From contig NZ_CP038865.1 in the NCBI RefSeq assembly GCF_004792515.1, forward strand, positions 50,001 through 114,000: a stretch of DNA of 64,000 nt. The letters run 5' to 3'. A program made the translations under genes and the position numbers. Positions 10,673-57,004 of this stretch are shown piece by piece. Below the pieces are notes generated by a model that did not search any database, was not told the origin of the DNA, and was given only the letters and a program-made list of their open reading frames with translations. The stretch comes from Vagococcus xieshaowenii. GTDB taxonomy: Bacteria > Bacillota > Bacilli > Lactobacillales > Vagococcaceae. Each line of letters starts with the position of its first letter. The first letter of the stretch is position 1.

Positions 10673-10736
10673 AATATTTCACTCCTATTAAATTTTAGTA
10701 TCATTTACTATTAAGCTACACCATTTCGTAATATAT

Positions 10737-10780: not shown

Positions 10781-10825
10781 AGAGAGTACGAATAACACGT
10801 ATGATAATGAAAGGTGTTGTATTAT

Positions 10826-14584: not shown

Positions 14585-14613
14585 TTGACATTTACTCAGA
14601 TTACACGTAAAAT
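14585..14613 (+). promoter_or_regulatory. Sigma-A promoter of helD
   Basis: TTGACA (14585-14590), 17 bases, TAAAAT (14608-14613). It lies 35 bases upstream of the helD start codon and its AGGAGGAG site at 14633-14640. Confidence 0.75.
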
Positions 14614-14647
14614 TATTTGTCACGAATGAACTAGGAGGAGTTTTAAT

Positions 14648-17572: not shown

Positions 17573-17582
17573 GAGTTAAGAA

Positions 17583-41706: not shown

Positions 41707-41717
41707 GAGGTGTTGTG

Positions 41718-42518
41718 ATGAATGTAAGTTATCAATTGCTATTAACAGATCAAACCACCGAACTAATACCAGATACTACCACTTTTATTGAAAAAGTGAC
41801 GCTTTTTCACCAAAAAATGCCCATCGGATCGGCGCAGGCTGTCTACTTGTACACTAAAGAGCGTCAATTGATGGGAGTAGGTCTTGCTAGTGAATTGTCA
41901 CAGTGGACGCTGGACAAGGAGCAAGAGGATGCGGTGATAGAAGTCCGTTTGGTGTGGGATATTGAGCCAATCATGGTAGTGTCATACTTGAATACGCAAG
42001 CCCAATCGGCTAAATTAAAAAAGTTCAAGCCAACAAGTGAACGAGTCAATGTACCCGCTAATCAAGAAGCAACCATGTCTACATTAGTTGATACTTTTTT
42101 AACGCTATTGGCACGTATGGGTTACCCACTTTTCACGGTCAAAAAAGCGAAACCTGCCAAAGCGCAACATCGTTTTCGTAAAGATATGGCGACGACTGCT
42201 TTTTATGTCGATTCATTTGACAGCCAAGCCACTGTTTATTGGCAAAAGCGTCAAGAGATGTTAATCAAGTCAGGCGCTGTGCTACGACAAGAGATTCCCT
42301 TAAATAAAGATGGAAGTGTCGGTCTAAGTGCCAAAATGGGACAACAATTTCGTAAAGAACACGAGGATAAAATTCGTGATGGCAAGACAACGGAAGATAT
42401 CGTATTAAAAAGTGTCAATGAAGTCGGTCTTTTCCTTTATTATGGTGGCACAAATGGCTGGTTAGAGTTAAAAGATGCCGCCGGAAAAACAATTCATGAA
42501 TGGACGATGGTCAAATAA
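41718..42518 (+). CDS. Uncharacterised cytosolic protein
   Basis: 266 residues from ATG 41718 (AGAGG at 41706-41710). I do not recognise it. It has no signal peptide or membrane helix. The N-terminal half is predicted alpha/beta (IEVRLVWDIEPIMVVSYL). The middle is basic (RVNVPANQEATMS, KKAKPAKAQHRFRKDM). The C-terminal 80 residues are better ordered: KSGAVLRQEIPLNKDGSVGL, KTTEDIVLKSVNEVGLFLYY, NGWLELKDAAGKTIHEW. It lies 11 bases after rae1, so it likely ends that operon. Codon use matches its neighbours. Confidence 0.6.
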   Translation: MNVSYQLLLTDQTTELIPDTTTFIEKVTLFHQKMPIGSAQAVYLYTKERQLMGVGLASELSQWTLDKEQEDAVIEVRLVWDIEPIMVVSYLNTQAQSAKLKKFKPTSERVNVPANQEATMSTLVDTFLTLLARMGYPLFTVKKAKPAKAQHRFRKDMATTAFYVDSFDSQATVYWQKRQEMLIKSGAVLRQEIPLNKDGSVGLSAKMGQQFRKEHEDKIRDGKTTEDIVLKSVNEVGLFLYYGGTNGWLELKDAAGKTIHEWTMVK

Positions 42519-42542
42519 GGGTTCATCGTTTGGTAGTAATAT

Positions 42543-42571
42543 TTGAAAGTTTTATCACTTAACGGTATAAT
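42543..42571 (+). promoter_or_regulatory. Sigma-A promoter of the riboswitch-ATPase transcript
   Basis: TTGAAA (42543-42548), 17 bases, TATAAT (42566-42571), a near-consensus promoter. The start point would fall near 42578, just ahead of the riboswitch. Confidence 0.8.
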
Positions 42572-42583
42572 GAGTAGGAAATC

Positions 42584-42720
42584 TATCCATAGGGGAGTAA
42601 CTGGCGATTGTTTGAATCGTGACAACATCAACAACAAGAAGAAGTCACTTCTGGTGTTGTCTTAAATAGTGAGACTTATGTATGAACAGCTTACTTGCTC
42701 ATACATGAGTCTCTTTTTAT
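42584..42720 (+). promoter_or_regulatory. yybP-ykoY (manganese) riboswitch candidate with terminator
   Basis: CATAGGGGAGTAACTGGC (42588-42605) matches the conserved GGGGAGUA start of yybP-ykoY RNAs, followed by ATCGTGACAACATCAACAAC and a 3' half ending near GTGAGAC. An intrinsic terminator follows: GAGACTTATGTATGA (42671-42685) pairs with TCATACATGAGTCTC (42699-42713, one G-U), then TTTTT. This class senses Mn(II) and commonly controls P-type cation ATPases in lactic acid bacteria and streptococci, as here. Confidence 0.8.
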
Positions 42721-42757
42721 ATAACTGGATAGGAAAAAGATAAGGAGGAAGTAAAGT

Positions 42758-45490
42758 ATGTCAGATGAGAAAAAGAAACAGCTCGTTGAACCTTTTTATA
42801 CGGAAACCGAAGAATCGGTATTAAGTAAATTAGGCGCAACGCGTGAAGGGTTATCAGACGCAGAAGCAGCGAAGCGTTTAGCAGATTATGGTGAGAACCA
42901 ACTAGATGAAGGGAAGAAGAAAACCCTCTTTTCTAAATTTCTAGATCAATTTAAAGATTTAATGATTATTATTTTATTAGTGGCAGCCATCGTATCAGGT
43001 GTGATGGGTGACCATGTGGAAGCAATTATGATTGTGGTCGTAGTCTTCTTAATGGCAATTTTCGGTGTCGTACAAGAAGCCAAAGCCGAACAAGCGATTG
43101 ATGCGTTGAAAGACATGTCAACACCAAACGCGAATGTCTTACGTAGCGGAAGTCCAAAAGTCATCAAGAGTACCGAAATCGTGCCAGGAGACATTGTCTT
43201 ATTAGAAGCAGGAGATGTGTTGCCAGCAGATATTCGTTTACTAGAAGCTAATTCATTAAAAATTGAAGAAGCAGCATTGACCGGTGAATCTGTTCCGGTT
43301 GAAAAAAATATCGCAGTCTTATCAGATACAGAAACAGGTATCGGTGACCGTCTAAACATGGGATACATGAACAGTAACGTAACATATGGTCGTGGTATTG
43401 GGGTCGTAACCGGTACAGGTATGAATACCGAAGTTGGTAAGATTGCTAGCATGTTAGCACAAGCTGACGAAACAAACACACCGTTAAAAGAAAACTTGAA
43501 CCAATTAGGTAAATGGTTAACTTATGCGATTTTAGCCATCTGTGTCATCATGTTCGTTGTTGGGATGATGGGTGGTAACAAAAACTGGGTAGATATGTTA
43601 TTAACATCTGTTTCACTTGCAGTAGCTGCGATTCCAGAAGGTTTACCAGCGATTGTTACCATTGTTTTAGCCCTAGGGACACAAATTATGGCTAAACGTA
43701 ACGCATTAGTACGTAAATTACCAGCCGTTGAAACACTAGGTAGTACAGATATTATTTGTTCAGACAAAACAGGGACGTTAACTGTTAACCAAATGACGGT
43801 TGAACAATTATTTACAAACAATCAAGTCATACCAGCTGATCAAGCATTAGCAGCTGATAACATGACGTTAAAAGTAATGAACTTCTGTAACGATACAAAA
43901 TTCTCAGCAGAAGGAACATTAATCGGTGATCCAACAGAAACAGCTTTAGTAAAATATGGTTTGAACCAACACTTTGACGTTCGTGAATTAGTAGCACAAG
44001 AGCCACGTGTGGCAGAAGTACCATTTGATTCAGATCGTAAATTAATGTCAACGATTCATCAATTAGCAGACGGTCGCTACTTAGTCGCAACTAAAGGAGC
44101 ACCAGATGAATTATTAAAACGTACAGTTTCTTATGAAGTAAATGGTGACATTAAACCAATGGATGACGCTGAGCGCTCATTGATTTTAACAACCAACACG
44201 AACTTAGCTAAACAAGCGCTACGTGTCTTAGCGATGGCGTATAAATTTGTTGACGAGGTTCCAACTGAATTAGAATCAGAAGTAGTAGAAAACGATTTAA
44301 TCTTTGCTGGTTTAGTCGGAATGATTGACCCAGAACGTAAAGAAGCGGCCGAAGCAGTTCGTGTGGCAAAAGAAGCAGGTATTCGTCCAATCATGATTAC
44401 CGGTGACCACCGTGACACAGCCGAAGCCATTGCTGTTCGTCTAGGAATCATTACAGAAGGACAACATGAAGCAGTCATTACAGGGGCAGAATTAAACGAT
44501 TTATCAGATGAAGCTTTTGCTAAAGTTGTGCCTAATTACTCAGTTTATGCACGTGTATCACCTGAGCATAAAGTACGTATCGTTAAAGCATGGCAAGCAG
44601 AAGGTAAAGTAGTAGCGATGACTGGTGACGGTGTTAACGATGCACCCGCTCTTAAAACAGCAGATATTGGTATCGGAATGGGTATCACAGGTACGGAAGT
44701 ATCTAAAGGCGCGAGTGACATGGTCCTTGCCGATGATAACTTCTCAACGATTGTTGTAGCAGTTGAAGAAGGACGTAAAGTCTTCTCAAATATTCAAAAA
44801 ACTATTCAATACTTACTTGCCGCTAACTTAGGGGAAGTGTTAACCTTATTTATCGCGACATTATTAAAATGGGATACCTTATTACCGGTTCATTTATTAT
44901 GGATCAACGTGGTAACTGATACATTCCCAGCGATTGCTTTAGGTTTAGAACCAGCTGAAAAAGATGTCATGAAACAAAAACCACGTGGCCGTAACTCTAA
45001 CTTCTTCTCTGGTGGTGTCTTAAGCAGTATTGTCTACCAAGGTATTTTAGAAGCTGGTATCACATTAGGCGTTTATTGGTCAGCACTTAAATGGCCAGCG
45101 CATGCTGCTCTAGATGCTACGCAAAAAGCAGCAGCAGCGGCGGATGGATTATCAATGGAACAAGCTATTTACAACTTGCAACATGGTGATGCCTTAACAA
45201 TGGCGTATGCAACCCTAGCGTTGATCCAATTATTCCATGCCTTTAACGTGAAGTCAGTTCATGGTTCATTATTCAAAGTAGGCGCGTTTAGAAATAAAAC
45301 ATTCAACTATGCCGTGTTATTATCATTTGTCTTATTAGCGGCAACGATTGTGATTCCTGGATTTAATGATCTATTCCAAGTAACACATCTTGATACGTAT
45401 CAATGGGTAATTGTATTATGTGCGTCAATCTCAATTATTCCAATTGTTGAAATTGTTAAATTCTTCCAACGCAAAGCATTAAATCACTAA
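42758..45490 (+). CDS. P2-type cation-exporting ATPase (Ca/Mn)
   Basis: 910 residues with ten predicted membrane helices. An N-terminal cation-ATPase domain, the actuator motif EEAALTGESVPVEK, membrane helix 4 AAIPEGLPAIVTIVLALGT, phosphorylation site SDKTGTLTVNQM (Asp near 336), KGAPDELLKR in the nucleotide domain, and MTGDGVNDAPALKTADIGI. PEGL in helix 4 is typical of calcium-type pumps, a group that exports Ca or Mn. The Mn riboswitch argues for manganese-responsive expression. ATG 42758 follows AAGGAGGAAG. Ends at a terminator; monocistronic. Confidence 0.93.
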   Translation: MSDEKKKQLVEPFYTETEESVLSKLGATREGLSDAEAAKRLADYGENQLDEGKKKTLFSKFLDQFKDLMIIILLVAAIVSGVMGDHVEAIMIVVVVFLMAIFGVVQEAKAEQAIDALKDMSTPNANVLRSGSPKVIKSTEIVPGDIVLLEAGDVLPADIRLLEANSLKIEEAALTGESVPVEKNIAVLSDTETGIGDRLNMGYMNSNVTYGRGIGVVTGTGMNTEVGKIASMLAQADETNTPLKENLNQLGKWLTYAILAICVIMFVVGMMGGNKNWVDMLLTSVSLAVAAIPEGLPAIVTIVLALGTQIMAKRNALVRKLPAVETLGSTDIICSDKTGTLTVNQMTVEQLFTNNQVIPADQALAADNMTLKVMNFCNDTKFSAEGTLIGDPTETALVKYGLNQHFDVRELVAQEPRVAEVPFDSDRKLMSTIHQLADGRYLVATKGAPDELLKRTVSYEVNGDIKPMDDAERSLILTTNTNLAKQALRVLAMAYKFVDEVPTELESEVVENDLIFAGLVGMIDPERKEAAEAVRVAKEAGIRPIMITGDHRDTAEAIAVRLGIITEGQHEAVITGAELNDLSDEAFAKVVPNYSVYARVSPEHKVRIVKAWQAEGKVVAMTGDGVNDAPALKTADIGIGMGITGTEVSKGASDMVLADDNFSTIVVAVEEGRKVFSNIQKTIQYLLAANLGEVLTLFIATLLKWDTLLPVHLLWINVVTDTFPAIALGLEPAEKDVMKQKPRGRNSNFFSGGVLSSIVYQGILEAGITLGVYWSALKWPAHAALDATQKAAAAADGLSMEQAIYNLQHGDALTMAYATLALIQLFHAFNVKSVHGSLFKVGAFRNKTFNYAVLLSFVLLAATIVIPGFNDLFQVTHLDTYQWVIVLCASISIIPIVEIVKFFQRKALNH

Positions 45491-45496
45491 TAAATG

Positions 45497-45534
45497 AAAA
45501 AAGAAGTAGGAAATATGACCTGCTTCTTTTTTTA
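45497..45534 (+). terminator. Terminator of the cation ATPase gene
   Basis: AAAAAAGAAGTAGG (45497-45510) pairs with CCTGCTTCTTTTTT, followed by further Ts. Confidence 0.85.
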
Positions 45535-45588
45535 TTCCCAATAACAAGGTAAAATAAGAATATCAATAAAATGACAAGGAGAATCATA

Positions 45589-46026
45589 ATGAAGCAAACA
45601 AATGTTGGTTTTTATGCACAAACTATTAATAAAGTAGTAGAAATAACAGAACAAACTGGAGAAGCAATGAATCCGTTCTTTGAAACAGTTCGTCAAGCTA
45701 TCGACAACGGAACGGTTAGTGAGCTAACAGAGACGCAATACAAAGAAATTAAAGAAGCCTTTGGAACAGGCTTAGACAACTATAAAAAATTATCGACTAT
45801 GTTAACAGGGCAAAAAGCACCGATTAAAGTAGTCGGTATCCATAAAAAGTTTGAAAAAACATACGCAGACTACATTACATCATGCCAAGCAATGATTGAT
45901 TCGCTAGGTGACACACCTGCCGACTTAGACGTTGAAAAATTCAATCACTCAGAAGAGCAACAAGATGACGTAACAGAAACGCTAGCTTTTTGTGTGCAAC
46001 GTTTGAGTAATTTGTTGTTAAAATAA
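45589..46026 (+). CDS. Uncharacterised small soluble protein
   Basis: 145 residues from ATG 45589, with AAGGAG at 45576-45581. It is predicted all-helical and acidic (MKQTNVGFYAQTINKVVEIT, FNHSEEQQDDVTETLAFCVQ). No export signal and no motif that I recognise. It stands alone between a terminator and a terminator-rich region. A conserved family of unknown function in enterococci-type bacteria is plausible but not shown. Confidence 0.65.
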   Translation: MKQTNVGFYAQTINKVVEITEQTGEAMNPFFETVRQAIDNGTVSELTETQYKEIKEAFGTGLDNYKKLSTMLTGQKAPIKVVGIHKKFEKTYADYITSCQAMIDSLGDTPADLDVEKFNHSEEQQDDVTETLAFCVQRLSNLLLK

Positions 46027-46079
46027 ACGGTATATTAATAAAAAAAGGGGCATTTTGAGCGTAACATTAGACAGAAATT

Positions 46080-46128
46080 AGGTTGTTTAGTATTATGAAT
46101 ACATAACCAACAACAACCTTTTTATTTT
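46080..46128 (+). terminator. Terminator after the 45589 gene
   Basis: AGGTTGTT (46080-46087) pairs with AACAACCT (46112-46119), with an inner TATT/AATA pairing, followed by TTTTTATTTTT. A further dyad ATTTTACTC/GAGTAAAAT (46131-46139 and 46145-46153) follows at once. Confidence 0.65.
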
Positions 46129-46165
46129 TCATTTTACTCCTCCAGAGTAAAATAACTCCTTTTTT

Positions 46166-46197
46166 CCACTACGAAAATATATCGTAGTGGTTTTTTT
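46166..46197 (+). terminator. Second terminator upstream of ogt
   Basis: CCACTACGA (46166-46174) pairs with TCGTAGTGG (46182-46190), then TTTTTTT. It sits 39 bases before the ogt start and only 40 bases after the first terminator, so either a short RNA ends here or ogt expression is attenuated. Confidence 0.8.
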
Positions 46198-46235
46198 GTC
46201 TATTATTTTTGAAGCGTGAAAAGGAGGTGATTTCG

Positions 46236-46736
46236 GTGAAATTATTATACTATGATGAGCTAATACTAACAGATAAAAGACGTGTGTATTTATTGGTAAG
46301 TGACAAAGGTTGGGTAGCTATTAGTTCATTTGATGCGTCTAAAGAAGCGTTCTTGTCTGAGTATGTGGCTTACCATTGTCAATTAGCTAGCGAACAAGTT
46401 ATGCCATATAAAGAAGCCTTACGTCGTTACGTTGAAGGTGATAGACAAGCGTTTGATCAACCCATTGATTTTTTAGGAAGAGGGAGCGAGTTCCAACGTG
46501 CTGTTTGGCAAGCGCTGCAAATGATTCCCTATGGTACTACGACAACTTATGGTGAGATAGCGCAACAAATTAATCGTCCTAAAGCGGTTCGGGCAGTCGG
46601 TACCGCCATTGCGTGTAATCCACTCCGAATAGTGATTCCTTGCCATCGCGTGATCCGAGCAGATGGTAGCATAGGTGGTTATAACGGTGGCATAGAGATG
46701 AAGCATTACTTGCTAGCGTTAGAAAAGACGTTGTGA
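46236..46736 (+). CDS. ogt: Methylated-DNA--protein-cysteine methyltransferase
   Basis: 166 residues. Suicide repair of O6-alkylguanine in DNA. The catalytic IPCHRVIRADGS (Cys near 130) is intact, with FQRAVWQALQMIPYGTTTTYGEIA in the DNA-binding helix-turn-helix and AVRAVGTAIACNPL before the Cys. GTG 46236 is fixed by AAGGAGGTGA at 46221-46230; an in-frame TTG at 46209 has no site. It is probably cotranscribed with the small membrane protein that follows. Confidence 0.93.
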   Translation: MKLLYYDELILTDKRRVYLLVSDKGWVAISSFDASKEAFLSEYVAYHCQLASEQVMPYKEALRRYVEGDRQAFDQPIDFLGRGSEFQRAVWQALQMIPYGTTTTYGEIAQQINRPKAVRAVGTAIACNPLRIVIPCHRVIRADGSIGGYNGGIEMKHYLLALEKTL

Positions 46737-46808
46737 TAGGATAAAGATAGAAAGTTCAAAAAAGGTTATCAATGATACGACAACGTAAAGAAAAGAGGCA
46801 GATAGATC

Positions 46809-47012
46809 ATGCAATGGCTAATAGATATTCTAGCAATTATTATTGTGGCAATAGTCGTTATCATCGCGTTTACTGTTGTGATCAGTTTTGTGATGGCACT
46901 TTATGCCAATATTCGTTATCAACAACCTTTTTTTGTAACATGGTATGCCAAGTTTAAAGACTTGCTGGTGAATACCTTATTTGAAGCGTTATGGCCATTT
47001 AATTGGTTCTAA
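46809..47012 (+). CDS. Small one- or two-helix membrane protein
   Basis: 67 residues. Residues 5-33 are strongly hydrophobic (IDILAIIIVAIVVIIAFTVV), then a short loop (YANIRYQQPFF) and a second amphipathic stretch ending LFEALWPFNWF. Unrecognised. The RBS (GAGG near 46795) is weak and about 11 bases off. A weak hairpin with a T-run follows at about 47027-47072. Confidence 0.55.
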   Translation: MQWLIDILAIIIVAIVVIIAFTVVISFVMALYANIRYQQPFFVTWYAKFKDLLVNTLFEALWPFNWF

Positions 47013-47103
47013 GTTTGTTCATCCAACATCAGAAAAACTGCTCATATGGGTAGGGTTTCCGGTGTTTTTTTTGTATAATAAGAATGATTAGGAGGGGAAA
47101 GTC

Positions 47104-48252
47104 ATGAATCACGCATTGAAAGAGCGTATTATTGCCCAAAGTAAGCAATTAGGCATCGACAAAATTGGGTTTACAGACGCCTCATCATTTGAACACTTAA
47201 AAGATAGCTTGGAAGAACAAAAAGCAGCCGGACATACGACAGGGTTTGAACATCCTGTAATTGAGGAAAGATTGTACCCTGAAAAAATTTTTGATCAGCC
47301 ACAGTCGATTATTTCGATTGCCTTAGCGTATCCAACAAAAATTAAAGAGAAGCCAGACATTGTTCGGGGTGAACGCCGAGGGAGTTTTGCGCGCGCATCA
47401 TGGGGTGTTGACTATCACAATGTTTTACGCGACCGAATGAACAAGTTGATGGCGTTTATTAAAGAAATTGCAGAAGATGAAGCGGCGCTGACGTTTAAGC
47501 CAATGGTCGATACTGGAGAATTAATCGATGTTGCAGTAGCACAACGTGCGGGGCTAGGCTTCATAGGCAAGAATGGCCTGCTGATTACGGAAGAGTTTGG
47601 TTCGTATGTCTATCTGGGCGAAATTATAACAAATATTCCCTTTGAACCAGACACTCCGATTGAGAATCAATGTGGGACGTGTACGAAATGTATCGATGCC
47701 TGTCCAACAGGTGCTTTACTAGGCGATGGGCGGATGAATGCCCAACTATGTCTGTCTTATCAAACACAGACACGAGGGATGATGCCAGAAGCATTTCGTC
47801 CAAAAATCCGTACGGTTATTTACGGGTGCGACATTTGCCAACAAGTCTGTCCGTTTAATAAAGGCAAAGACGCACATTTTCATGCCGAGATGGAACCAGA
47901 TCCTGAAGTGGTAACCCCACTATTGAAGCCCCTGCTAACTATTTCAAATAAAGAATTCAAACATAAATTTGGTTATCTTGCCGGTTCATGGCGTGGGAAA
48001 AAACCCATCCAGCGTAACGCGATTATTGCGTTAGGTAACGCTAGACAAAAATCGGCCTTACCAGATTTGTTGAAAGTTATTGAGGAAGACCCACGTCCAG
48101 ATATTCGAGCTACAGCGGTTTGGTCAGTCGGTGAAATCGTTGGTAGTAAAGGGAATCCTGAGTTAGAAGCTTTTTTTAACACGCTTTTGACCACGACAGA
48201 AGCCCCTGAAATAATCGACGAGATCAATAAAGTTATCAAAAAATTGCACTAA
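47104..48252 (+). CDS. queG: Epoxyqueuosine reductase
   Basis: 382 residues, the usual length. QueG reduces epoxyqueuosine in tRNA to queuosine with cobalamin and two [4Fe-4S] clusters. Cluster ligands are [16 protein letters not shown] (about 190-205) and [14 protein letters not shown] (about 238-251). The C-terminus (about 300-380) forms HEAT-like repeats ([20 protein letters not shown]). ATG 47104 follows AGGAGGGG; a TATAAT lies at 47074-47079. The gene implies import or salvage of queuine/preQ precursors and of B12, not shown here. Confidence 0.95.
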
Positions 48253-48265
48253 ATTGATAAAAAGA

Positions 48266-48294
48266 TTGATTCTTGCTATGAGATAGTCTAATAT
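48266..48294 (+). promoter_or_regulatory. Candidate promoter of udk
   Basis: TTGATT (48266-48271), 17 bases, TAATAT (48289-48294), about 39 bases upstream of the udk start. Confidence 0.5.
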
Positions 48295-48332
48295 TAATAA
48301 GAATATATTGAGATGAAAGAGGTAAAATCTTG

Positions 48333-48971
48333 ATGGGAGACAATAAAAAAAGACCCGTATTAATAGGTGTAACTGGTGGATCAGGTAGTGGTAAAACAAG
48401 CGTTAGTCGTAAGCTATTAGAAGCATTTACAGAAGATCATTCGATTGTTTTATTTGAACAAGATTCTTACTACAAAGATCAACGCCATTTAACGTTTGAA
48501 GAACGTTTAGAAACAAACTATGATCATCCGTTAGCGTTTGACACTGATCTATTGATTGAACATTTGAATCAATTACTTAATTATGAAGCAATTGATAAAC
48601 CGATTTACGACTATGATCGTCATACTCGTAGTGATAAGGTTGAGCATCAAGAACCTAAAGAAGTGATTATTGTTGAAGGGATTTTAATCCTGGAAGATGA
48701 ACGCTTACGTGACTTAATGGACATCAAAGTCTATGTCGATACTGAGGACGATATTCGTATTATCCGTCGTATTAAGCGTGATATGGAAGAACGTGGCCGT
48801 ACATTAGATTCAGTTATTAATCAGTATTTATCTGTGGTGAAGCCAATGCATCACCAATTTATCGAGCCAACGAAGAAATATGCAGATATTATCATCCCAC
48901 AAGGTGGCGAAAATCAAGTCGCAGTTGATTTATTAACAACCAAAATCGCTACGATTATTGATAAGAAATAA
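48333..48971 (+). CDS. udk: Uridine/cytidine kinase
   Basis: 212 residues, family length. Walker [18 protein letters not shown] (about 12-28), followed by [22 protein letters not shown], and YDYDRHTRS in the nucleoside-binding loop; [22 protein letters not shown] in the core. Phosphorylates uridine and cytidine in pyrimidine salvage. ATG 48333 is preferred over TTG 48330, with AGAGGT upstream. A terminator follows. Confidence 0.95.
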
Positions 48972-48976
48972 AATAA

Positions 48977-49017
48977 AAACTCTAACTCGTCATCTTAAAC
49001 GTGTTAGAGTTTTTTTG
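48977..49017 (+). terminator. Terminator after udk
   Basis: AAAACTCTAACTCG pairs with CGTGTTAGAGTTTTTTT (one mismatch), directly after the udk stop. Confidence 0.85.
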
Positions 49018-49031
49018 TATCTAAGACATAG

Positions 49032-50579
49032 CTAACTAATACGTGCCTCACGTATTGAGGGGACAGTAGTATTTATTAGCGAAGATAGTTGTCCTATACA
49101 GGCATTTAGTTGTTCCTCGTGGTTCACATTATGTAAATAGAGCACTTTGGTACGATGTGTGTCCGCTTCGATTAATTGATTATTAGTCACAATAATGGTC
49201 GCCTCGTCGATATTATGCGTCAAAGTGATTCTGCCTGAATAAAGTTGTTCAATTTTCTTCTCGAATAGCCTTTTTTTGAAATAATTACTACTAAAGTCAA
49301 CAAGTAAACAGTGTTTATGAGCGACAGGTTCATGGACTAACTGGAGCAAATCTAACATGATTTGAGAAAGATAGTTAGTGATAGAAACAGTGTTTATATT
49401 ACGATAAGTATCAGAATCAAAGTAACCTTCGAATACGTTATTGACACACTCTTGGGTAGTACGAAGTGTGGGATCAACGCCCTGGTGCTCATCTAAGTAC
49501 CAACTCGTTAAGAGCTTCGAAAAAAGCTCGGACTGGTTGAGTTTAGTCACTTCCATTATTAGAGAAATATTGAAATGAACATAAAGATGAAACAGCATGA
49601 AATAAAACTGTTCATCTGTTAACCTGATAGCAAGTGTGCGTGTGACATCATGCAAGGCTTGTTTTAATAACACAACTTCTTGCTTGGTACAGTGGGTCAT
49701 TGAGTCCCCAGCTTTAAGAACAAACTTCTCCGGGATTAACTCAGGGAATAGATAAAAAACATACAACTGATAGGTCAATTGTTCAATATATTTCGTTTGA
49801 TTCTTCCTAAAGTAACGATCAAGAAACTTGAAATTAAAAAAGACATACGTATCATCTTCTAGTCGAAAATAGGGCACACTTTCCAGAGTAGTCTTAATAA
49901 AGTGCCCCTGACTAATCCTTAAATAAATCACTGTATTAAATAATAAAAAATCACGCTTCAGTTGCTTGGATGGTGTCGGAATAAAGCTTTTAGAAGGAAT
50001 ATAATGTTTTATTTTTTCTTTCTTGAAAGAAAACGGCCAACTATCAATCGGTAAACACGACCTAAAGAAGTTAAATTGAAAAATCCGAATAGAGCGTTCA
50101 TTCCCTGAAAAAATATAATAATCATGTTCATTTTTTTCTAAGACCAGACCGAATTCGGCAAGTAACTCATTGAACTGCGAGAGTGTCTTGTAGACCGTAC
50201 TGCGACTCATCCCTAATTCGTCTATTAACCGATTCAACGTGATTTTTTTGTTACAACAAATAAATAAGCAGAGCTGGTAGGTATTAGATTGTTCAATATA
50301 ATCTTTCTTAATCGCCTGATAAAGCTTATGACAGTTTTTATTTTCCGTTACGAGTTCATAATACTCTGGTCCGTGTTTCTTAATAAGCGTATGCGATCCG
50401 TCGTTAATCGCTGACATTTGCATGTTCAACTCGTTGATATATCGTTGGAGAGTCTGATCATCCTCATCAATCAAGTCACTCAAGGTAGAGAGTGGACCAC
50501 TACTATTGATATGTTGGTAGAGATAATCGAACAGTTTGAATTTTTTTTGGTGATTTCTTTGTAAAAAATACAAAAACAT
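49032..50579 (-). CDS. Mga/AtxA-type PRD transcriptional regulator
   Basis: 515 residues from 50579, where AGGGGG is about 10 bases upstream; an ATG 33 bases earlier abuts AAGGA and is unlikely. Two N-terminal helix-turn-helix regions are visible: GPLSTLSDLIDEDDQTLQRY (about 26-45) and KITLNRLIDELGMSRSTVYK (about 108-127). A PRD-like helical middle follows, then a C-terminal EIIB-like domain (CLLVDFSSNYFKKRLFEKK and TIIVTNNQLI). This is the Mga/AtxA architecture, which in streptococci and enterococci controls surface proteins, often through PTS phosphorylation of PRD histidines. It is transcribed away from the surface operon at 50923, across a 340-bp gap, and is its likely regulator. Confidence 0.85.
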   Translation of the reverse strand: MFLYFLQRNHQKKFKLFDYLYQHINSSGPLSTLSDLIDEDDQTLQRYINELNMQMSAINDGSHTLIKKHGPEYYELVTENKNCHKLYQAIKKDYIEQSNTYQLCLFICCNKKITLNRLIDELGMSRSTVYKTLSQFNELLAEFGLVLEKNEHDYYIFSGNERSIRIFQFNFFRSCLPIDSWPFSFKKEKIKHYIPSKSFIPTPSKQLKRDFLLFNTVIYLRISQGHFIKTTLESVPYFRLEDDTYVFFNFKFLDRYFRKNQTKYIEQLTYQLYVFYLFPELIPEKFVLKAGDSMTHCTKQEVVLLKQALHDVTRTLAIRLTDEQFYFMLFHLYVHFNISLIMEVTKLNQSELFSKLLTSWYLDEHQGVDPTLRTTQECVNNVFEGYFDSDTYRNINTVSITNYLSQIMLDLLQLVHEPVAHKHCLLVDFSSNYFKKRLFEKKIEQLYSGRITLTHNIDEATIIVTNNQLIEADTHRTKVLYLHNVNHEEQLNACIGQLSSLINTTVPSIREARIS

Positions 50580-50922
50580 AGATAAAATTCCCCCTGACTT
50601 AACAAAAAACATTCCTTTTGTATAAGTTGTTACCGCTATTATATGGTTTAATTGTGAAAAAAATGTGAAGAAAGTATGAAGTTAAATCATAAAAGTGAAA
50701 AAAATTTGCCCAACAAAAGATGGCTTATGCCTTTAAACTCAACGTTTCTCTAGCTATATGTATCAGTGTGACAATAAAAAAGGTCAAATAAGACAGATTC
50801 CGAAAAAAAATTTAAAAAAATAAAAAGATAAAACGCCTCCTAAGCACGCACCCTTTATCATTAATAGTGTGATAAACAAACAAATAAACAACAAACACAA
50901 AAAGGGTAAGGGGAAATATTAA
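50580..50922. promoter_or_regulatory. Divergent control region between the Mga-like gene and the surface operon
   Basis: 343 very AT-rich bases. It contains the inverted repeat TTTATCA (50854-50860), nine bases, TGATAAA (50870-50876), about 47 bases before the first surface gene, a candidate regulator or operator site. No clear -35/-10 pair precedes the surface operon, which fits dependence on an activator. Direct repeats of GTGAA occur at about 50656-50696. Confidence 0.5.
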
Positions 50923-51462
50923 ATGAAAAAAATGAATGTATTATTAACGACTATGGCAGTTACGACACTTTTAGGAGGCAGCGTGACAGCATTTGCTGAA
51001 GAAGGACCTGCATATGTAAAGTATGACAATACGAATGCAATTGTTGACCCAACAAATCCTGCTGATCCGGATTATTTAATTAGAATTCCTGGAGCCATAA
51101 ACTTTACAGATGAGAATCGTAGCATCAAGACTCCTATTTCGATGGTTACTCCGGATGGAGATGTCTATGAGGGTGATAAACAAGCATTAGTTAAAGTGGA
51201 GTCTAGTAATACAACTAGTTATTCTTTGAAATCTGAAAGTGGAAATGATCAAATTGACTATAAATTGTTGTATGAAAAAGAGGACGGAGAACTAAAAACA
51301 ATGGCTGATGGTAATGAATTCGGGACAATCGGAGTACTAAGTTCGTCAAGAACTTCAATTGATGGTAAAGCAGTCCTAGGCCAAGACAAAGCAAAATTAC
51401 AAGAAGTATATTCTGATATTTTATACTTTGTTGTAAACGAATATACTCCTGTTGAAGAATAA
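50923..51462 (+). CDS. Secreted small beta-rich surface subunit (first gene of Mga-linked operon)
   Basis: 179 residues with a clear signal peptide (MKKMNVLLTTMAVTTLLGGS, cleavage after AFA-EE). The mature part has the pattern DPDYLIRIPGAINFTDENRS, VKVESSNTTSYSLKSESG, and a last strand YSDILYFVVNEY. It recalls single-domain secreted beta-sandwich proteins (WxL-like or spore-coat-U/camelysin-like) but has no WxL motif and no sortase signal. RBS AAGGGGAAA at 50907-50915. An intrinsic terminator 34 bases after the stop would let this gene be expressed in excess of those downstream. Function unknown. Confidence 0.7.
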   Translation: MKKMNVLLTTMAVTTLLGGSVTAFAEEGPAYVKYDNTNAIVDPTNPADPDYLIRIPGAINFTDENRSIKTPISMVTPDGDVYEGDKQALVKVESSNTTSYSLKSESGNDQIDYKLLYEKEDGELKTMADGNEFGTIGVLSSSRTSIDGKAVLGQDKAKLQEVYSDILYFVVNEYTPVEE

Positions 51463-51495
51463 ACTTTTAAATAAACCAAATTCACATACCTAAGT

Positions 51496-51525
51496 AAAGG
51501 AAGCTGCGGCTTCCTTTATTTTTTC
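51496..51525 (+). terminator. Internal terminator/attenuator in the surface operon
   Basis: AAAGGAAGC (51496-51504) pairs perfectly with GCTTCCTTT (51509-51517), followed by ATTTTTTC. It sits between the first and second genes, 17 bases before ATG 51543. Confidence 0.8.
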
Positions 51526-51542
51526 AGGAGAGGGAGAGGACA

Positions 51543-52031
51543 ATGAATAGTAAAAATAAGAAGTGGTTAGTGTTAGTCTTACTGTTGCTTGTTGTAGGTT
51601 GCGGTTTTTTTTTCTATACAAAGCAATCAGAAGACAGCAATGGCTTAAAGAAAGACCAAAACGCACAGGCATATAAAAGCAAAATCAAAAAACCAGAAGA
51701 CTGGGCTAAGGAGGAAATCGCCTTTCCTTCATACAATCAAATCAACGTAGAAGAAGGGGCTAAGCAAGCGTATGTGGCATTACTGAATCCTGAATTCAAC
51801 GATGCCAACATGCAGTTTATCGTGACCATGGATGATCAGAAAGAGCCGTTACTAGAGAGCGGATTGGTAGAGCCAGGTCAAGCGATTACCACGATTGATT
51901 TACCACAGGACTTAGCAGTGGGAGAACACACCGTTCATTTACATATGAAAGGTTACACCACAGATGAAGAACCAACCGAGTTGAATGGTACTAGAACGAA
52001 TTTTACGTTGATGGTTTTAAAGAAGAAGTAA
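51543..52031 (+). CDS. Membrane-tethered beta-sandwich protein of the surface operon
   Basis: 162 residues. Residues 7-26 form a membrane anchor (WLVLVLLLLVVGCGFFFYT). The Cys in VVGCGF is a weak lipobox at most. The extracytoplasmic part reads as one beta-sandwich: AFPSYNQINVEEGAKQAYVA, LLNPEFNDANMQFIVTMDD, LLESGLVEPGQAITTIDLPQ, LAVGEHTVHLHMKG, and a final strand FTLMVLKK. The NPxxN...ESGLVEPGQ...LAVGEHT layout occurs in small accessory proteins beside exported beta-rich proteins in Firmicutes, by my recollection. A chaperone- or assembly-like role is speculation. RBS GGAGAGGGAGAGG. Confidence 0.7.
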   Translation: MNSKNKKWLVLVLLLLVVGCGFFFYTKQSEDSNGLKKDQNAQAYKSKIKKPEDWAKEEIAFPSYNQINVEEGAKQAYVALLNPEFNDANMQFIVTMDDQKEPLLESGLVEPGQAITTIDLPQDLAVGEHTVHLHMKGYTTDEEPTELNGTRTNFTLMVLKKK

Positions 52032-52052
52032 TGACGAAAGAGAGGGTTAGTT

Positions 52053-52367
52053 ATGATAAGTAATAAGCTGGCGTTAACAATTAAACGTAGCCTCATGATG
52101 TTGTTGGTAGGAATGACCATCATATTCATCAACCCCTCCGACGCATCGGAAATCAGTCAAACTAGCGTGACATACTACTGCCGTGTCAACGGTAAAGAAG
52201 ACATCGAACAACCAACCGATTGGGACCACGTGATAGCGCTGGACCAAGATAGCCAAGAGAAACTCATTCAAGCAAATGAACGCACCAATAATTTCTCAAT
52301 AATCGGAATCGTCTTAATCGGTTTGGTGATTCTATACAAGAGCTACAGGAGGAAACAATCCCTATGA
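52053..52367 (+). CDS. Small exported protein with C-terminal membrane helix
   Basis: 104 residues: an N-terminal hydrophobic segment (LMMLLVGMTIIFINPSDA, probable signal), about 45 polar residues (TSVTYYCRVNGKEDIEQPTD), and a C-terminal membrane helix (FSIIGIVLIGLVILY) with a basic tail KSYRRKQSL. The end looks like a sortase tail but no LPxTG precedes the helix. Not recognised. It overlaps the next start by ATGA, so translation is coupled. Confidence 0.65.
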   Translation: MISNKLALTIKRSLMMLLVGMTIIFINPSDASEISQTSVTYYCRVNGKEDIEQPTDWDHVIALDQDSQEKLIQANERTNNFSIIGIVLIGLVILYKSYRRKQSL

Positions 52368-55300
52368 GAGCAAAAACAATCGTGACCGCTAGCCTACTGG
52401 CGTGTACGTTATGCCATTCTTACGAACAGACAACCGCTACTGAGACAACCAATCTACAAGCAGATATTCACAAACTAGCGAAAGATACAGATGATACAAA
52501 CATAGCGGGCTTTATTGTTGTGCCTAAAGAAATCACATTAGAAAAAAACGGAAATATGGTCGAAAATCAAGAGATACCTTTGCATTACTACCCTATGTCA
52601 GAAAATGATTCTGATGTGACGATAAGTTCCACTAGTCATGTTGTTGAGCTTAAGAACCAAGCTAACCAAGATGAAATCGTCTCTCTTCCTATCTTTAATA
52701 GTGATAATGATAGATTAACAGAAGGAAGTACTGACTTAGTAACGCTAAGTTCTAGTGATCCAACTAAGATGTTTGCCTTACGAACAACCGTAGATGCCTT
52801 TCCATCAGAAGAAATCTATACTGGCACCATGACCTTTGAAAGTACGGTACAAGTGGTGACGGACATAACATGGGAAATAGATGGAGCAAGTGAGCTGCAA
52901 CCAGCATCAACTGCGACCTATCAGCTAATCCCCCACCCCGCCACTAGCCGCTCAACACCAGAGACGGTTACATGGAGTGTCGAAAATAAGAATTCAGAAG
53001 AAACGAAGATTGACGAAAAAACAGGTGAACTAACCATTGGCTTGGATGAAAACGAGGGTACGCTGACCATCACCGCGACTCCTGAAGATGGAGAGTCATA
53101 CACTAAGGAAGTGACCGTTAAACCTTTATTAAAAGGGGACGAGTTTACTTACGATGGTATTGAATGGACAGTCATGAAACGAGAAGCCACACAAGCTTTA
53201 ATTGTGACGAAGGATGTTGTGGGGGATGGCTTTGGTTATAATGAAGAGAAAGATAGTAATAACTCTTACGAAGACTCTACTTTAAAAGAGAAAGCAACAG
53301 CCTTTTATAATCAAAGATCTGATTATATGAAAACTAATTACGTGCTACCTGTTACAATCTCGAGTGGTGACTCGGTAGAGGTAACAACAGTAAATGGTAA
53401 TGAGGAGGATAAACAGGCATTTGCTCTTAGTTTGGGGGATATTTATGCTAATTGGACAACTCAAAAGGAAAGAACAGTTGGTAAGGATTGGTGGTTGAGG
53501 ACTAAAGTGTCAAGTCTACCAAATACAGTATATTATATTCAAAGTGACGGTAGCCTAAATGATACGAATCTTACTACTGGGAAAAATGAAAAATTCCTCC
53601 GTCCCGCTTTGTATATTAAGCAAGGGGAAATAAAGGAAAAGCTTAAACTCAAGCACTTGCATGTAAGAGGCGCTAAACCTACTCATACTGTAAACTATCA
53701 ATTATCAAAAGATGAAAATAATGAGGGTCAGTTTGTAGGACAGAATGAGAACGTAGAATTCACCATCCACGAAGAATTTACTACATCTGATAAGACCGCT
53801 ATTTCTGATAATGGGGAGTTAACGTTAGGGTTGAACGAACAACAATCAACAATTACGGTACAAGCAACTCATAATGGTCAAACAGTGGAGAAACATGTAG
53901 ACGTTTTACCGCTAGAAGAAGGAGAAGTCATTAACATTGATGGACTAGACTGGCGTGTCTTAAAGATAGACGAAACCACGCAGCAAGCCTTATTAATCAC
54001 AGAATATGTGCAAGGTAATGAAGGGATTGTGTTTAATGAAGAAGAGAAAGGCAATATCTATCAAGGCTCCAACTTAGAAGCCCAAATGCACGCATTCTAT
54101 GAAAATCAAGTATCAGATACAATCAAACACCACGCCCTCCCCGTTAACTTGCCAATAGATTCAGAAAGGGCACATGGTGATGAAGTGTCTAACCAAACGA
54201 GTGTAGCAAGTGAAGGAGAACCAACCGCATTTGCGCTAAGTGGTGCGGATAAAATGTCAATTTTTGGTGAAAACCATACTGAAGCTATAGCATATGTTGA
54301 TGATGAAGCAAAAGAAAAAGAAGATGCGAAACACTGGTGGCTAAGAACAAAAGCTGAAAGTGGGTCTGCTAGTCCAGCTGCTTACCGAGTAAATCATATA
54401 GGAAGGAATGTTTCACTTGCAGTACAGGGAGAAATTAGTGTAACGCCTTATCTCCGCCCCGCTGTCTATGTTCATCTCGGTTCGGAAACCTATGAACCTT
54501 GGACGATTACAGGGCAAGATGCGGTGATAAAAGGGGACAAAAAAGTGGCGTATCACATGGTATCCAATGAGCTTAATCCCACTGATATGAATTTAACCTG
54601 GGGCGTTTATTATGCGACATCAAAAGGAACAATGGTAAATGAAAACGGTGAATTGACCGTTGCTTCAAATGAAACAGCGACAACCATCACCGTCGTCGCA
54701 ACCAACGGCAAACAAACCGCACGAAAAGACATTCGAGTAGAACCACAAGTAGCGATAACAAAAGCTACAGTAACAAATGGAGAAGATGAAGGTTTAGATA
54801 TTATAACTGAGTATCAAGAAGCCATCCAAGGCGAAACAATCCAATTCGAATCTAATTTCCCTGATGAACTGAAAGAGAATATTGTTTGGAAAGTGCCTAG
54901 TGAAAGTAATCCTAATCTTAATCCTAATACTAAATTTAACGGTAATGTATTAACTATAGGAACGAAAGAACTTTCAACGACTATTAAAGTCATAGCGGTT
55001 AGTCGATATAATCCAGCTAATTACGCTAAATTTGATTTGACAGTGACGCCAAAGTTGGAAATTAAAGCTGATATTGGGTATACTATTTCAGTTTTATCTA
55101 CTAGATCCTTTAGTACAAACTTAGACGCAGAGTTTAGCCTAGATACAGAGATTGAAAACGAAGTAGAACATTTAGATATAAAAGCTGATCCTGGTCTCAG
55201 CAAAAAAATCACTATTAACGTTCTGATTACAGCGCTACAAGAAAAAGATGATTTTACTGTTCAATTGAACGCAAGTCATACAAGTAAAAACGGACGTCAA

Positions 55301-55828
55301 CAAGTCGCTACTAAATCCATCACAATCAACCTGTTTAAAGTCGGAAGAAGTGTAACTTTAGGGAACTTTAACTGGAAGATACTTGATATTGATAATGAAG
55401 GTAATTATTTTATGATTATGAGTGAATTAAATCAAATGCGACAAACAAGTTTCTCACTAAATGGATATACATCATATGAAGACTCAGAATTGTATAAATT
55501 CTTGGAAACAATAGAAAATGAAATATCAGGTGATATAAAAAAATATATTCAACCCATTAATCTTTTTTCTCAAGGAGAGGAAGATATAACAAAGGTAGAT
55601 GTTATTAATGGAGAAAAAAGATTATTTCCATTGACCAAACAGGATTATCTTAAATATGAGAGGTACTTACCTGCTATTCCAGGAGATAGCATGCATATAA
55701 CTGGTTGGTCGTTGAGAACGTCTAAGGGTTCGCAAGTTTATTTTGTAGAGTTTGATAGACCCGAATTAATAAGCCCAAACTCAATTAAATACGTCCGTCC
55801 TGGCGTGATCTTTAATTTTGGCTATTAG
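52364..55828 (+). CDS. Large secreted multi-domain protein with three DUF6273-like WWLR modules
   Basis: 1154 residues. The N-terminus (MRAKTIVTASLLACTLCHSY) is a signal peptide with a possible lipobox-like LLACT/TLCHS, so lipoprotein status is uncertain. Residues about 40-165 follow the layout of the small subunit at 50923, ending YTGTMTFES like YSDILYFVV. Ig-like strands alternate with three similar modules at about 250-420, 520-705 and 985-1154. Each reads G(D/E)xxxxxG(I/L/N)xWxVxxxx...LI(V/I)T, then a short FY helix, FAL, (W)WLRT or WSLRT, and LRPA or VRPG. This is the DUF6273-like pattern. No LPxTG or anchor helix is present, so it is likely held by partners or released. Ligand unknown. 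Confidence 0.75.
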   Translation: MRAKTIVTASLLACTLCHSYEQTTATETTNLQADIHKLAKDTDDTNIAGFIVVPKEITLEKNGNMVENQEIPLHYYPMSENDSDVTISSTSHVVELKNQANQDEIVSLPIFNSDNDRLTEGSTDLVTLSSSDPTKMFALRTTVDAFPSEEIYTGTMTFESTVQVVTDITWEIDGASELQPASTATYQLIPHPATSRSTPETVTWSVENKNSEETKIDEKTGELTIGLDENEGTLTITATPEDGESYTKEVTVKPLLKGDEFTYDGIEWTVMKREATQALIVTKDVVGDGFGYNEEKDSNNSYEDSTLKEKATAFYNQRSDYMKTNYVLPVTISSGDSVEVTTVNGNEEDKQAFALSLGDIYANWTTQKERTVGKDWWLRTKVSSLPNTVYYIQSDGSLNDTNLTTGKNEKFLRPALYIKQGEIKEKLKLKHLHVRGAKPTHTVNYQLSKDENNEGQFVGQNENVEFTIHEEFTTSDKTAISDNGELTLGLNEQQSTITVQATHNGQTVEKHVDVLPLEEGEVINIDGLDWRVLKIDETTQQALLITEYVQGNEGIVFNEEEKGNIYQGSNLEAQMHAFYENQVSDTIKHHALPVNLPIDSERAHGDEVSNQTSVASEGEPTAFALSGADKMSIFGENHTEAIAYVDDEAKEKEDAKHWWLRTKAESGSASPAAYRVNHIGRNVSLAVQGEISVTPYLRPAVYVHLGSETYEPWTITGQDAVIKGDKKVAYHMVSNELNPTDMNLTWGVYYATSKGTMVNENGELTVASNETATTITVVATNGKQTARKDIRVEPQVAITKATVTNGEDEGLDIITEYQEAIQGETIQFESNFPDELKENIVWKVPSESNPNLNPNTKFNGNVLTIGTKELSTTIKVIAVSRYNPANYAKFDLTVTPKLEIKADIGYTISVLSTRSFSTNLDAEFSLDTEIENEVEHLDIKADPGLSKKITINVLITALQEKDDFTVQLNASHTSKNGRQQVATKSITINLFKVGRSVTLGNFNWKILDIDNEGNYFMIMSELNQMRQTSFSLNGYTSYEDSELYKFLETIENEISGDIKKYIQPINLFSQGEEDITKVDVINGEKRLFPLTKQDYLKYERYLPAIPGDSMHITGWSLRTSKGSQVYFVEFDRPELISPNSIKYVRPGVIFNFGY

Positions 55829-55845
55829 CAAGCCCCTACAACTAT

Positions 55846-55893
55846 ACAATCAAGAATGACAGCCTTTTTGGCAGTTGTTCTTGGTTGTTTTTG
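55846..55893 (+). terminator. Terminator of the Mga-linked surface operon
   Basis: 55846-55864 pairs with 55870-55888 (ACAATCAAGAA... / ...TTCTTGGTTGT, several G-U pairs) and is followed by TTTTTG. Confidence 0.8.
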
Positions 55894-56402
55894 TCTATTA
55901 TATAGAAGAAACACGCTAGAGGTTACAGTAAGTCGCTTGAATATTACGGCGATGTAACGGAAGCGGGATTCTTGATATAGAGTAATTTTGTCATAAAGAA
56001 AGAAATGTTTTTGTAATATTGAGAGGATTTTTGGCTTTTTTTAGGGATTTTGGGGGAATGCAAGAAAAAATGTGAAAAAAAATGAGTTTTTTTCAAAAAA
56101 GAACGCTTGTTTTAAATGTAACGAAAATGAACATAAACAGTTTGTTTGAGAGTAGTTGGTATGATAGGGATTTGTCGTGTTTATTTTGCCTACTATTTTT
56201 TCAAAAAACCTGGCAGATGACCGCTAATATTACAAGTTGTCATATTTCTTCGATTATTGTTATCAATCTATTGATGTTTTGTAACATAAAAATGGTTTAA
56301 TAGGTCTCGTGGCAAACGTCGAGCAACATTTATGAGACGTAAATCAAACGCCCAATAGAGACAATCAATATGAATTGTCAAAATCGAAGGAGAACTATTA
56401 TT
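55894..56402 (+). promoter_or_regulatory. Gene-free region and structured leader of the LysM gene
   Basis: About 500 bases without a convincing gene. A weak promoter (TTGATG 56271-56276, TTTAAT 56296-56301, 19-base spacing) would give a leader of about 95 nt. That leader holds GTCTCGT (56304-56310) pairing with ATGAGAC (56332-56338, one G-U) and GACAAT (56360-56365) pairing with ATTGTC (56374-56379), the second hairpin just before the AAGGAG site. The 55900-56270 part is AT-rich with poly-A/T tracts and no clear signal. Confidence 0.45.
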
Positions 56403-56987
56403 ATGAAGATTTCTAAATTAGTATTTGGTATGGCAGGATTAGTAACATTTGGCTTAGGGATGAACAGTGTAGATGCAGCGGAGGTTTCACATACTATTCA
56501 ATCAGGTGAAACATTATCAACTATCGCTCAAGATTATTTCGGTGATGCTTCTTACTATAGTACAATTGCTCAAGCTAACAACATTTCAGACGCTAACATG
56601 ATTTATGTAGGTGAAACATTAGTCTTTGATACAGAAGGTACTGCCGTTCAAGCAGCCCCTGTTGCACAAGTACAAACACAAGAAACACAAGCGCCTGCAG
56701 CACCAGTGGTTGAAGAACAACCAGCTCAAACGCAAGAAGCTAGCTACACATCAAACGCTTCAGGTTCTGAAGCAGATGCAAAATCTTGGATCGCGTTTAA
56801 AGAATCAACAAACAACTACAACGCACGTAACGGTCAATACGTTGGTAAATATCAATTAACAGATAGCTACTTAAACGGTGACTACTCACCAGCCAATCAA
56901 GAACGTGTAGCAGACAACTATGTATCATCTCGTTATGGTTCATGGCAAGCAGCTAAAAACTTCTGGTTAGCTAACGGATGGTATTAA
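56403..56987 (+). CDS. Secreted LysM protein with Apf/lysozyme-like C-terminus
   Basis: 194 residues from ATG 56403 (GAAGGAGAA upstream). A signal peptide (cleavage near VDAAEV) is followed by one LysM domain (HTIQSGETLSTIAQDYFG to about 80). A Gln/Ala/Pro linker (VQTQETQAPAAPVVEEQPAQ) leads to a C-terminal domain beginning AKSWIAFKESTNNYNARNGQ and ending NFWLANGWY. That end resembles aggregation-promoting-factor/transglycosylase-like wall proteins, with Glu in FKESTNN as a candidate catalytic residue. It probably binds and may cleave peptidoglycan. Monocistronic. Confidence 0.88.
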   Translation: MKISKLVFGMAGLVTFGLGMNSVDAAEVSHTIQSGETLSTIAQDYFGDASYYSTIAQANNISDANMIYVGETLVFDTEGTAVQAAPVAQVQTQETQAPAAPVVEEQPAQTQEASYTSNASGSEADAKSWIAFKESTNNYNARNGQYVGKYQLTDSYLNGDYSPANQERVADNYVSSRYGSWQAAKNFWLANGWY

Positions 56988-57004
56988 GATAGTTTAGATA
57001 ACGT

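Follow-up and report, generated by a model that had tools for sequence, protein, structure and literature searches.

Gene content of the locus

The window, a 64,000-nucleotide stretch of the Vagococcus xieshaowenii genome (contig NZ_CP038865.1, positions 50,001 to 114,000; C1:50001-114000 in our numbering), carries an operon of four genes for secreted or membrane-held proteins beside a regulator gene, and we analyzed this set as a possible surface assembly, using window coordinates throughout. All five open reading frames (ORFs) are intact at the positions originally predicted, with the regulator on the minus strand (49032-50612) and divergent, as had been claimed, from four closely spaced genes on the plus strand (50923-55828), the last two of which overlap by 4 bases. 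We refer to gene 1 as S (the small subunit), gene 2 as A (a membrane protein with an immunoglobulin-like, or Ig-like, domain), gene 3 as D (the anchor peptide) and gene 4 as L (the large protein); their features are collected in Table 1.

Table 1. Features of the locus, in window coordinates, and, in the last two rows, of a separate locus (L016) of the same genome
Feature	Position	Strand	Basis
Accessory segment, regulator and operon	49017..56216	.	blastn against same-genus genome G019, locus L205
Mga/AcpB/EbpR/MafR-type regulator, divergent from operon	49032..50612	-	Pfam PF05043, E 6.4e-14; NF053736, 87.4 bits
Gene 1 (S), small secreted subunit, 179 aa	50923..51462	+	ORF call; homologs in other loci
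Proposed donor strand of gene 1, residues 30-40 (AYVKYDNTNAI), then DPTNPADP linker	51010..51042	+	Position and conservation in S alignment; putative strand role
Hairpin and T run between genes 1 and 2, likely partial terminator	51496..51525	+	-19.3 kcal/mol, z -5.3
Gene 2 (A), N-terminal membrane helix and Ig-like domain, 162 aa	51543..52031	+	AlphaFold2, Foldseek, relatives
Gene 3 (D), small exported peptide, kin of sortase-anchored CscD-type peptides, C-terminal membrane helix	52053..52367	+	NF053819, LPXTG_anchor, alignment
Proposed donor strand of gene 3, residues 37-45 (TSVTYYCRV)	52161..52187	+	Aligns with TTVKY / TVVEV / TSVTY of D homologs; putative strand role
LIQANE at the sortase-motif site of gene 3	52263..52280	+	Faces LPVTGE in Enterococcus faecalis D
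Gene 4 (L), secreted protein, 1154 aa	52364..55828	+	ORF call, Pfam, DUF6273 profile
Possible S-like domain at gene 4 N-terminus	52505..52858	+	Weak: 5.8 bits over positions 21-136 of a 140-position S profile
DUF6273 domain 1	53111..53632	+	Profile match, residues 250-423 (domain was part of the profile)
DUF6273 domain 2	53897..54487	+	Pfam PF19789, best stretch residues 541-703; profile match 512-708
DUF6273 domain 3, divergent	55319..55825	+	Profile built without it matches 986-1130, iE 1.7e-10
Likely terminator 3' of the operon	55846..55895	+	-23.5 kcal/mol, z -6.1, 0/200 shuffles
Locus L016 with diversity-generating retroelement	G000:C1:1886000-1905900		Reverse transcriptase 14596-15465 (-), template repeat 16325-16458 (-)
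L016 variable repeats	Ends of ORFs 17502-19874, 10395-12044, 6317-7972	-	DUF6273-bearing proteins, WxL-type by eye

No Pfam family matches gene 1 at E<=1, and the protein contains no tryptophan. Its AlphaFold2 model, computed from two sequences, is all-beta and of low confidence (predicted local distance difference test, pLDDT, 48.7; predicted template modeling score, pTM, 0.44), with residues 1-47 below a pLDDT of 50. When a profile of the gene-1 family was searched against the PDB at E<=10, the sole matches were three sequences of CsuA/B (E 0.3-0.4), which is a donor-strand pilin; the same search with another profile (A2) gave no match. For gene 2, the AlphaFold2 model (also from two sequences; pLDDT 65.9) places a helix at residues 3-31 ahead of a beta-sandwich. 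Foldseek against the PDB listed CopC first (2.7e-4), then many Ig-like folds from 4.5e-4 and the pilus chaperone DraB at 1.6e-3, a list too mixed for us to choose a function, and the eleven PDB matches of the gene-2-family profile (A1; E 0.46-1.2) were taken as noise. Neither DUF916 nor DUF3324 was matched by gene 2 in Pfam, in contrast to a WxLIP elsewhere in the same genome that scores 1.6e-36 and 4.2e-48 for these two domains; the weak Pfam side matches of genes 2 to 4 all fall below cut-off and were rejected.

Gene 3 matches NF053819, the sortase-dependent EF2685/EF0750 family, at E 0.0011 (19.4 bits; cut-off 47), and passes the LPXTG_anchor model with 17.0 bits against a cut-off of 15.9, the match spanning model positions 10-33 of 34, where the helix and tail lie, without the motif positions. 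It also aligns at 25-28% identity with the sortase-type D peptides of three other loci (L147, L092, L091), and the alignment shows that it keeps the N-terminal hydrophobic leader, the stretch shared with S that is described below, and the C-terminal helix. The original prediction described a small exported protein with a C-terminal helix and did not recognize its kinship to sortase substrates. Among 49 D candidates, 21 carry LPxT[GNSA] and 27 another proline-containing motif such as FPNMG, YPQTN or LPKAG, the window being alone without the proline. Since the sorting motif is altered even though the genome encodes one sortase-family protein (at C1:1313078, outside the window), gene 3 most likely stays in the membrane rather than being attached to the wall.

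In gene 4, Pfam finds two DUF6273 stretches and the third domain was detected only by a custom profile. The signal peptide contains the letters LLAC (window 52364-52430), which we take to resemble a lipobox, and a possible identity for gene 4 is a lipoprotein whose N-terminus sits at the membrane. No LPxT[GANS] was found in the last 60 residues of genes 1 to 4 and no Pfam WxL domain in gene 1 or 4 at E<=1, so the predicted lack of a sortase signal and WxL motif holds for both, except that the letters W-x-L do occur in gene 4 (WWLR, WSLR), within DUF6273 domains. Published models of DUF6273 resemble the C-type lectin fold, according to the accessible part of the literature on the phage proteins called tentaclins.

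The regulator carries an Mga helix-turn-helix domain, as had been predicted, and scores under the cut-off of 130 bits for the AcpB/EbpR/MafR model; it would activate the operon. Downstream of gene 1, the hairpin preceding a T run was more stable than all of 200 shuffles and is absent from the output of a consensus terminator scan; it is reasonable to expect from such a terminator more small subunit than large. When aligned by blastn, a locus of a same-genus genome (L205 in G019) matched window positions 41270-49016 at 81% identity and 56217-56992 at 84%, while the 7.2 kb with the regulator and operon had no match at the corresponding L205 site, which holds 1.2 kb of other DNA. In the 28 other genomes of the family, genes 1 and 4 had no match and seven genomes had a match to gene 2 (E 0.006 or better); the gene 4 domains match elsewhere within their own genome.

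The cassette in other Lactobacillales

Gene 2 proved the easiest member to trace, and S, D and L genes adjoin its homologs in other Lactobacillales loci. Of 295 genomes of the order, 96 had a match to the profile A1 (E<=1e-3), many of the weakest cases involving a short N-terminal stretch only, and a window-like profile (A3, E<=1e-6) matched 64 of 395. Automated calls around 67 gene-2 homologs gave an S candidate at 65, a D candidate at 54 (the D calls being partly wrong) and an L candidate at 57, with all three beside the homolog at 48, so that the co-occurrence expected from the original prediction is borne out at this level of annotation. We judge membership of the S-A-D-L cassette by a gene-2-family protein beside S and L, an arrangement that the window has, and further by an S-like domain in L and a stretch common to the N-termini of S and D, for which the window offers 5.8 bits at the gene 4 N-terminus and an S-D pair at p 0.21, with gene 3 aligning to other D peptides over the stretch.

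A parallel in layout is an unannotated Enterococcus faecalis plasmid record (LR962603; L147), in which a Mga-type regulator precedes S, A, D and L in the order of the window, with A 46% identical; it differs in that the regulator is not divergent, D has LPVTG, and L combines MucBP repeats with an S-like domain at its C-terminus. Enterococcus sp. DIV0212c (L126) likewise has consecutive S, A (47% identical) and a 1016-aa L, but no D between A and L and, by eye, no DUF6273 in L. On plasmid pMEPL_178 of Melissococcus plutonius, the European foulbrood bacterium, we read the order as L, A, S, D (L148, 3665-7385), all four being annotated 'hypothetical', and on the pCR1A plasmid of E. gilvus three cassette genes are also 'hypothetical', D being named for its LPXTG only. 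A gene-2 relative is present in a Listeria monocytogenes record; two scans of viral contigs found no relatives.

The cassette is a widespread, apparently unnamed kind of surface-protein set in Lactobacillales, and no description of it or of the mechanism considered here appeared among the matches listed from the open-access literature, as judged by titles and the starts of abstracts. Inspection by eye also suggested two or three different S genes at four loci (L132, L133, L135 and L137), as for major and minor subunits. At L136, L138 and L141, the S and A genes lie, again by eye, in the same gene run as WxL-type proteins, and the two systems may be expressed together there.

An N-terminal stretch common to S and D

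Our main evidence on how the parts might interact comes from the N-termini of S and D. Both candidates were available at 53 of the 67 loci, and hand-written filters against wrong ORFs and WxL proteins removed four, leaving 49, although these filters miss some wrong D calls (the D of L141, for example, resembles csc D). After signal peptides had been cut by a simple custom rule, we took the best match of a 9-mer from the first 45 residues of D to the S protein of the same locus and counted it if it fell within the first 45 mature residues of S; the first test took the best-scoring D and the repeats took the first D. The best 9-mer landed in this N-terminal region at 39 of the 49 loci versus 16.8 expected from shuffled D, and matched S-D pairs scored 24.2 compared with 20.7 for mismatched pairs, the highest of 5000 permutations reaching 22.8. 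Repeating the test without choosing the best D again gave 39 of 49, with none of 5000 permutations as high. The excess persisted after thinning of similar S proteins, with 26 of 33 loci (11.3 expected; permutation p 0/20000) and 15 of 22 (7.9 expected; p 0.0004). Controls showed no excess, whether with the N-terminus of L (18/45 versus 15.4 expected) or with residues 46-90 of A (13/49 versus 15.8). The stretch sits at or near the mature N-terminus of both proteins, as at L020, where S and D begin DVEIKGTVG and DLEIIGQVG. Many D peptides (L017, L018, L056, L058, L064-L066, L069, L146 and others) have no signal peptide by the simple rule; these begin almost at the stretch, for example MDNQIEVNGWLG, and end in a membrane helix.

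A related domain occurs in many L proteins of relatives. From 63 L candidates, which are large ORFs with a leader and not all true L, a profile of one of three hand-picked S groups (group A) matched 27 at domE<1e-3. In these proteins the aligned segment begins no earlier than profile position 42 (median 49), downstream of the S motif at positions 17-27, and in 24 of the 27 it ends no more than 15 residues from the C-terminus. With a second S group, matches at E 2e-5 or better were obtained for eleven L candidates; they begin at position 9-18 of 140, so it is not clear that these proteins have lost the stretch. For L proteins outside profile building, the values were 3.1e-24 in E. faecalis, where ten MucBP matches precede the terminal S-like domain, 2.4e-16 in E. 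gilvus (start at 36) and only 0.0034 in M. plutonius. The three S groups are not demonstrably one family, since profile comparison left group A unlinked to B or C, with B and C joined at 86.7% probability. We conclude from these matches that the S-like domain of L is mostly C-terminal in relatives and better supported there than in gene 4. The original prediction had seen in the gene 4 N-terminus the strand layout of gene 1; the likeness proved faint, at 1.5 bits against the gene-1-family profile and 3.4 and 5.8 bits against two other S profiles, and makes a weak case for the two as copies of one domain.

A donor-strand assembly and its alternatives

We propose, as a reading to which we give an even chance, that the operon, together with a dedicated Mga-type regulator, encodes an adhesion assembly on the cell surface whose parts are joined by donor-strand complementation. 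Each S subunit would be Ig-like, with a groove and an N-terminal strand left free to fill the groove of the next; D would carry a donor strand on a linker with an anchor, plugging the last S and tying the chain to the cell; and L, with a groove and no strand, would start the chain and display lectin-like DUF6273 domains at its tip. For A, an Ig-like protein held in the membrane, the probable role is to retain or prime emerging subunits. The order L-tip <- S <- S <- D-base is the simplest reading of who carries strand and groove in relatives; we infer the donor-strand role of the stretch, the fold of S, a polymer over a small complex, and the position of gene 4 at the tip. Of the original prediction, the arrangement of major subunit, anchor and large ligand-binding tip fits the relatives, which point to a conserved surface assembly; what changes is that the anchor would be gene 3.

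The proposal fits published models of WxL proteins. In the accessible text of Hassan & Williamson (2022), an N-terminal strand on a long, loose connector lies over a hydrophobic platform and is proposed to rearrange, and in that of Hassan et al. (2023), AlphaFold2 predicts a WxLIP strand (a hairpin) that completes the WxL sandwich. The words donor, polymer, filament, LPXTG and sortase are absent from the accessible 2023 text, and polymer from that of 2022, in which donor was not looked for. We also entertain, with somewhat less than even credence, a broader claim: that the cassettes represent a widespread, apparently unnamed Lactobacillales class of surface fiber in which Ig-like subunits are joined by N-terminal donor strands and the base is an anchor peptide made of one donor strand and a linker, that the same principle would explain CscD, and that in the variant held by the window the sortase motif has been lost, anchoring is probably by the membrane and the heads are lectin-like DUF6273 domains. 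If true, this would provide a mechanism for the way in which very small anchor peptides retain large, non-covalently held complexes on the surface of enterococci and their relatives.

Several results weigh against the donor-strand proposal. The S-D pair of the window itself falls short of significance (score 22, p 0.21), its best match lying in the linker and not the strand; the case for the stretch rests on relatives. Even among the relatives the single-locus signal is modest, with p<=0.05 at 19 of the 49 loci (17 of 49 in the repeat), and a control with the D linker, for which n was only 7, gave 4/7 versus 1.7 expected and is too small to clear the doubt. Searched against the PDB, a profile restricted to the stretch yielded only Lon protease (E 2.7-2.9) and thus no pilin; the AlphaFold2 model of gene 1 is too poor to display a groove, and its best Foldseek match (E 0.42) is uninformative. 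Gene 4 lacks the C-terminal S-like domain typical of L, its N-terminal candidate being weak. In csc/WxL clusters, for which WxL proteins were taken by letter pattern at 40 loci and one of 28 clusters was dropped for want of a signal peptide, the same test gave 13 of 27 versus 6.1 expected, with matched pairs at 24.0 and the highest permutation at 24.8. As the matched csc score is surpassed by at least one permutation, the mechanism is extended to csc as a hypothesis.

Binding of S and D to a common partner would be another explanation for the shared stretch, and this is the core of the foremost alternative, a csc/WxL-like platform without a polymer, in which the stretch docks S and D separately into A or a wall component to form a small complex. 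A is present in every locus by selection, so the locus-specific likeness of S and D could reflect it as shared partner, and the completion of the WxL sandwich by a WxLIP hairpin in the 2023 models offers a precedent. Against it, the 27 of 63 L candidates that carry an S domain without the stretch look more like acceptors of the strand than like another ligand of A, and some loci hold several S genes, as assigned by eye; we regard the platform as less likely than the donor-strand chain but as a serious rival, ahead of the remaining ones.

Decay or re-purposing of the locus, with the sortase motif of gene 3 and the C-terminal S domain of gene 4 lost and an assembly unlike that of relatives, seems to us improbable. 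It would account for LIQANE in place of LPxTG, in the only one of 49 D candidates without proline, for the atypical gene 4 and for the occurrence of genes 1 and 4 in none of the 28 other family genomes; against it, the five frames are intact with hairpins in place, gene 3 retains leader, stretch and C-terminal helix, and altered motifs such as FPNMG and LPKAG also occur in relatives. Least probable of all, at a slim chance, is that the shared segment is a trafficking or secretion motif and not a structural strand, which its place at or near the mature N-terminus of S and D would allow, but which sits poorly with the absence of such a match from the L and A proteins at these loci and with its locus-specific sequence.

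A diversity-generating retroelement elsewhere in the genome

Elsewhere in the genome, gene 4 has three matches, all within a WxL locus (L016, Table 1) that also encodes a reverse transcriptase and is situated at 1.89-1.90 Mb on the 1.98-Mb contig. Compared with the template, its three variable repeats have 29, 26 and 23 mismatches, and 19, 21 and 19 of them are at template adenines (42 A among 132-133 aligned positions). Because the mismatches concentrate on template adenines, the locus appears to be a diversity-generating retroelement that diversifies the DUF6273 domains of three surface proteins, WxL-type by eye. Gene 4 was considered as a further target and rejected, as three of its stretches differ from the template at 50 of 120, 60 of 122 and 46 of 105 positions, with 9, 16 and 14 of these at A. 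Among 29 family genomes, the reverse transcriptase turned up only in its own (E<=1e-20), and no open-access paper joining 'diversity-generating' with 'WxL' was found. Ten DUF916 (WxLIP) matches were counted in this 2.07-Mb genome and twelve in G019 of the same genus.

Comparison with known systems

A sortase-assembled pilus was rejected for the operon, as genes 1 to 4 have no LPxTG and the one sortase-family match of the genome lies outside the window. The TasA/camelysin family was likewise without a Pfam match to gene 1 at E<=1. In TasA/TapA of Bacillus, chaperone-usher pili and archaeal threads, a strand of one subunit completes the next, which is the mechanism proposed here; the PDB profile search showed no sequence homology of these filaments to the gene 1 family beyond CsuA/B at E 0.3. 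Tentaclins, the DUF6273 phage receptor-binding proteins, resemble gene 4 in having DUF6273 beside Ig domains, to judge from the accessible literature, but are phage proteins hypermutated by diversity-generating retroelements, whereas gene 4 has no copy of the template repeat of its genome.

The nearest likeness in overall composition is to the csc/WxL clusters, which form a comparable four-part set of a small subunit, a large multidomain protein that includes a variant form of the small domain, a membrane Ig protein and a very short LPxTG peptide. They differ in that genes 1 and 4 of the window lack Pfam WxL, gene 2 lacks DUF916 and DUF3324 and gene 3 lacks LPxTG, so that simple csc/WxL membership was rejected on all three counts, the kinship of S to WxL being judged by Pfam matches only. 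The membrane proteins also differ in orientation, with the helix of A being N-terminal in the AlphaFold2 model and that of CscA C-terminal in the accessible part of Siezen 2006. According to that same part of the paper, CscD anchors the rest 'through as yet unknown interactions'; if the mechanism proposed here is true, this question of 2006 becomes testable with two purified proteins.

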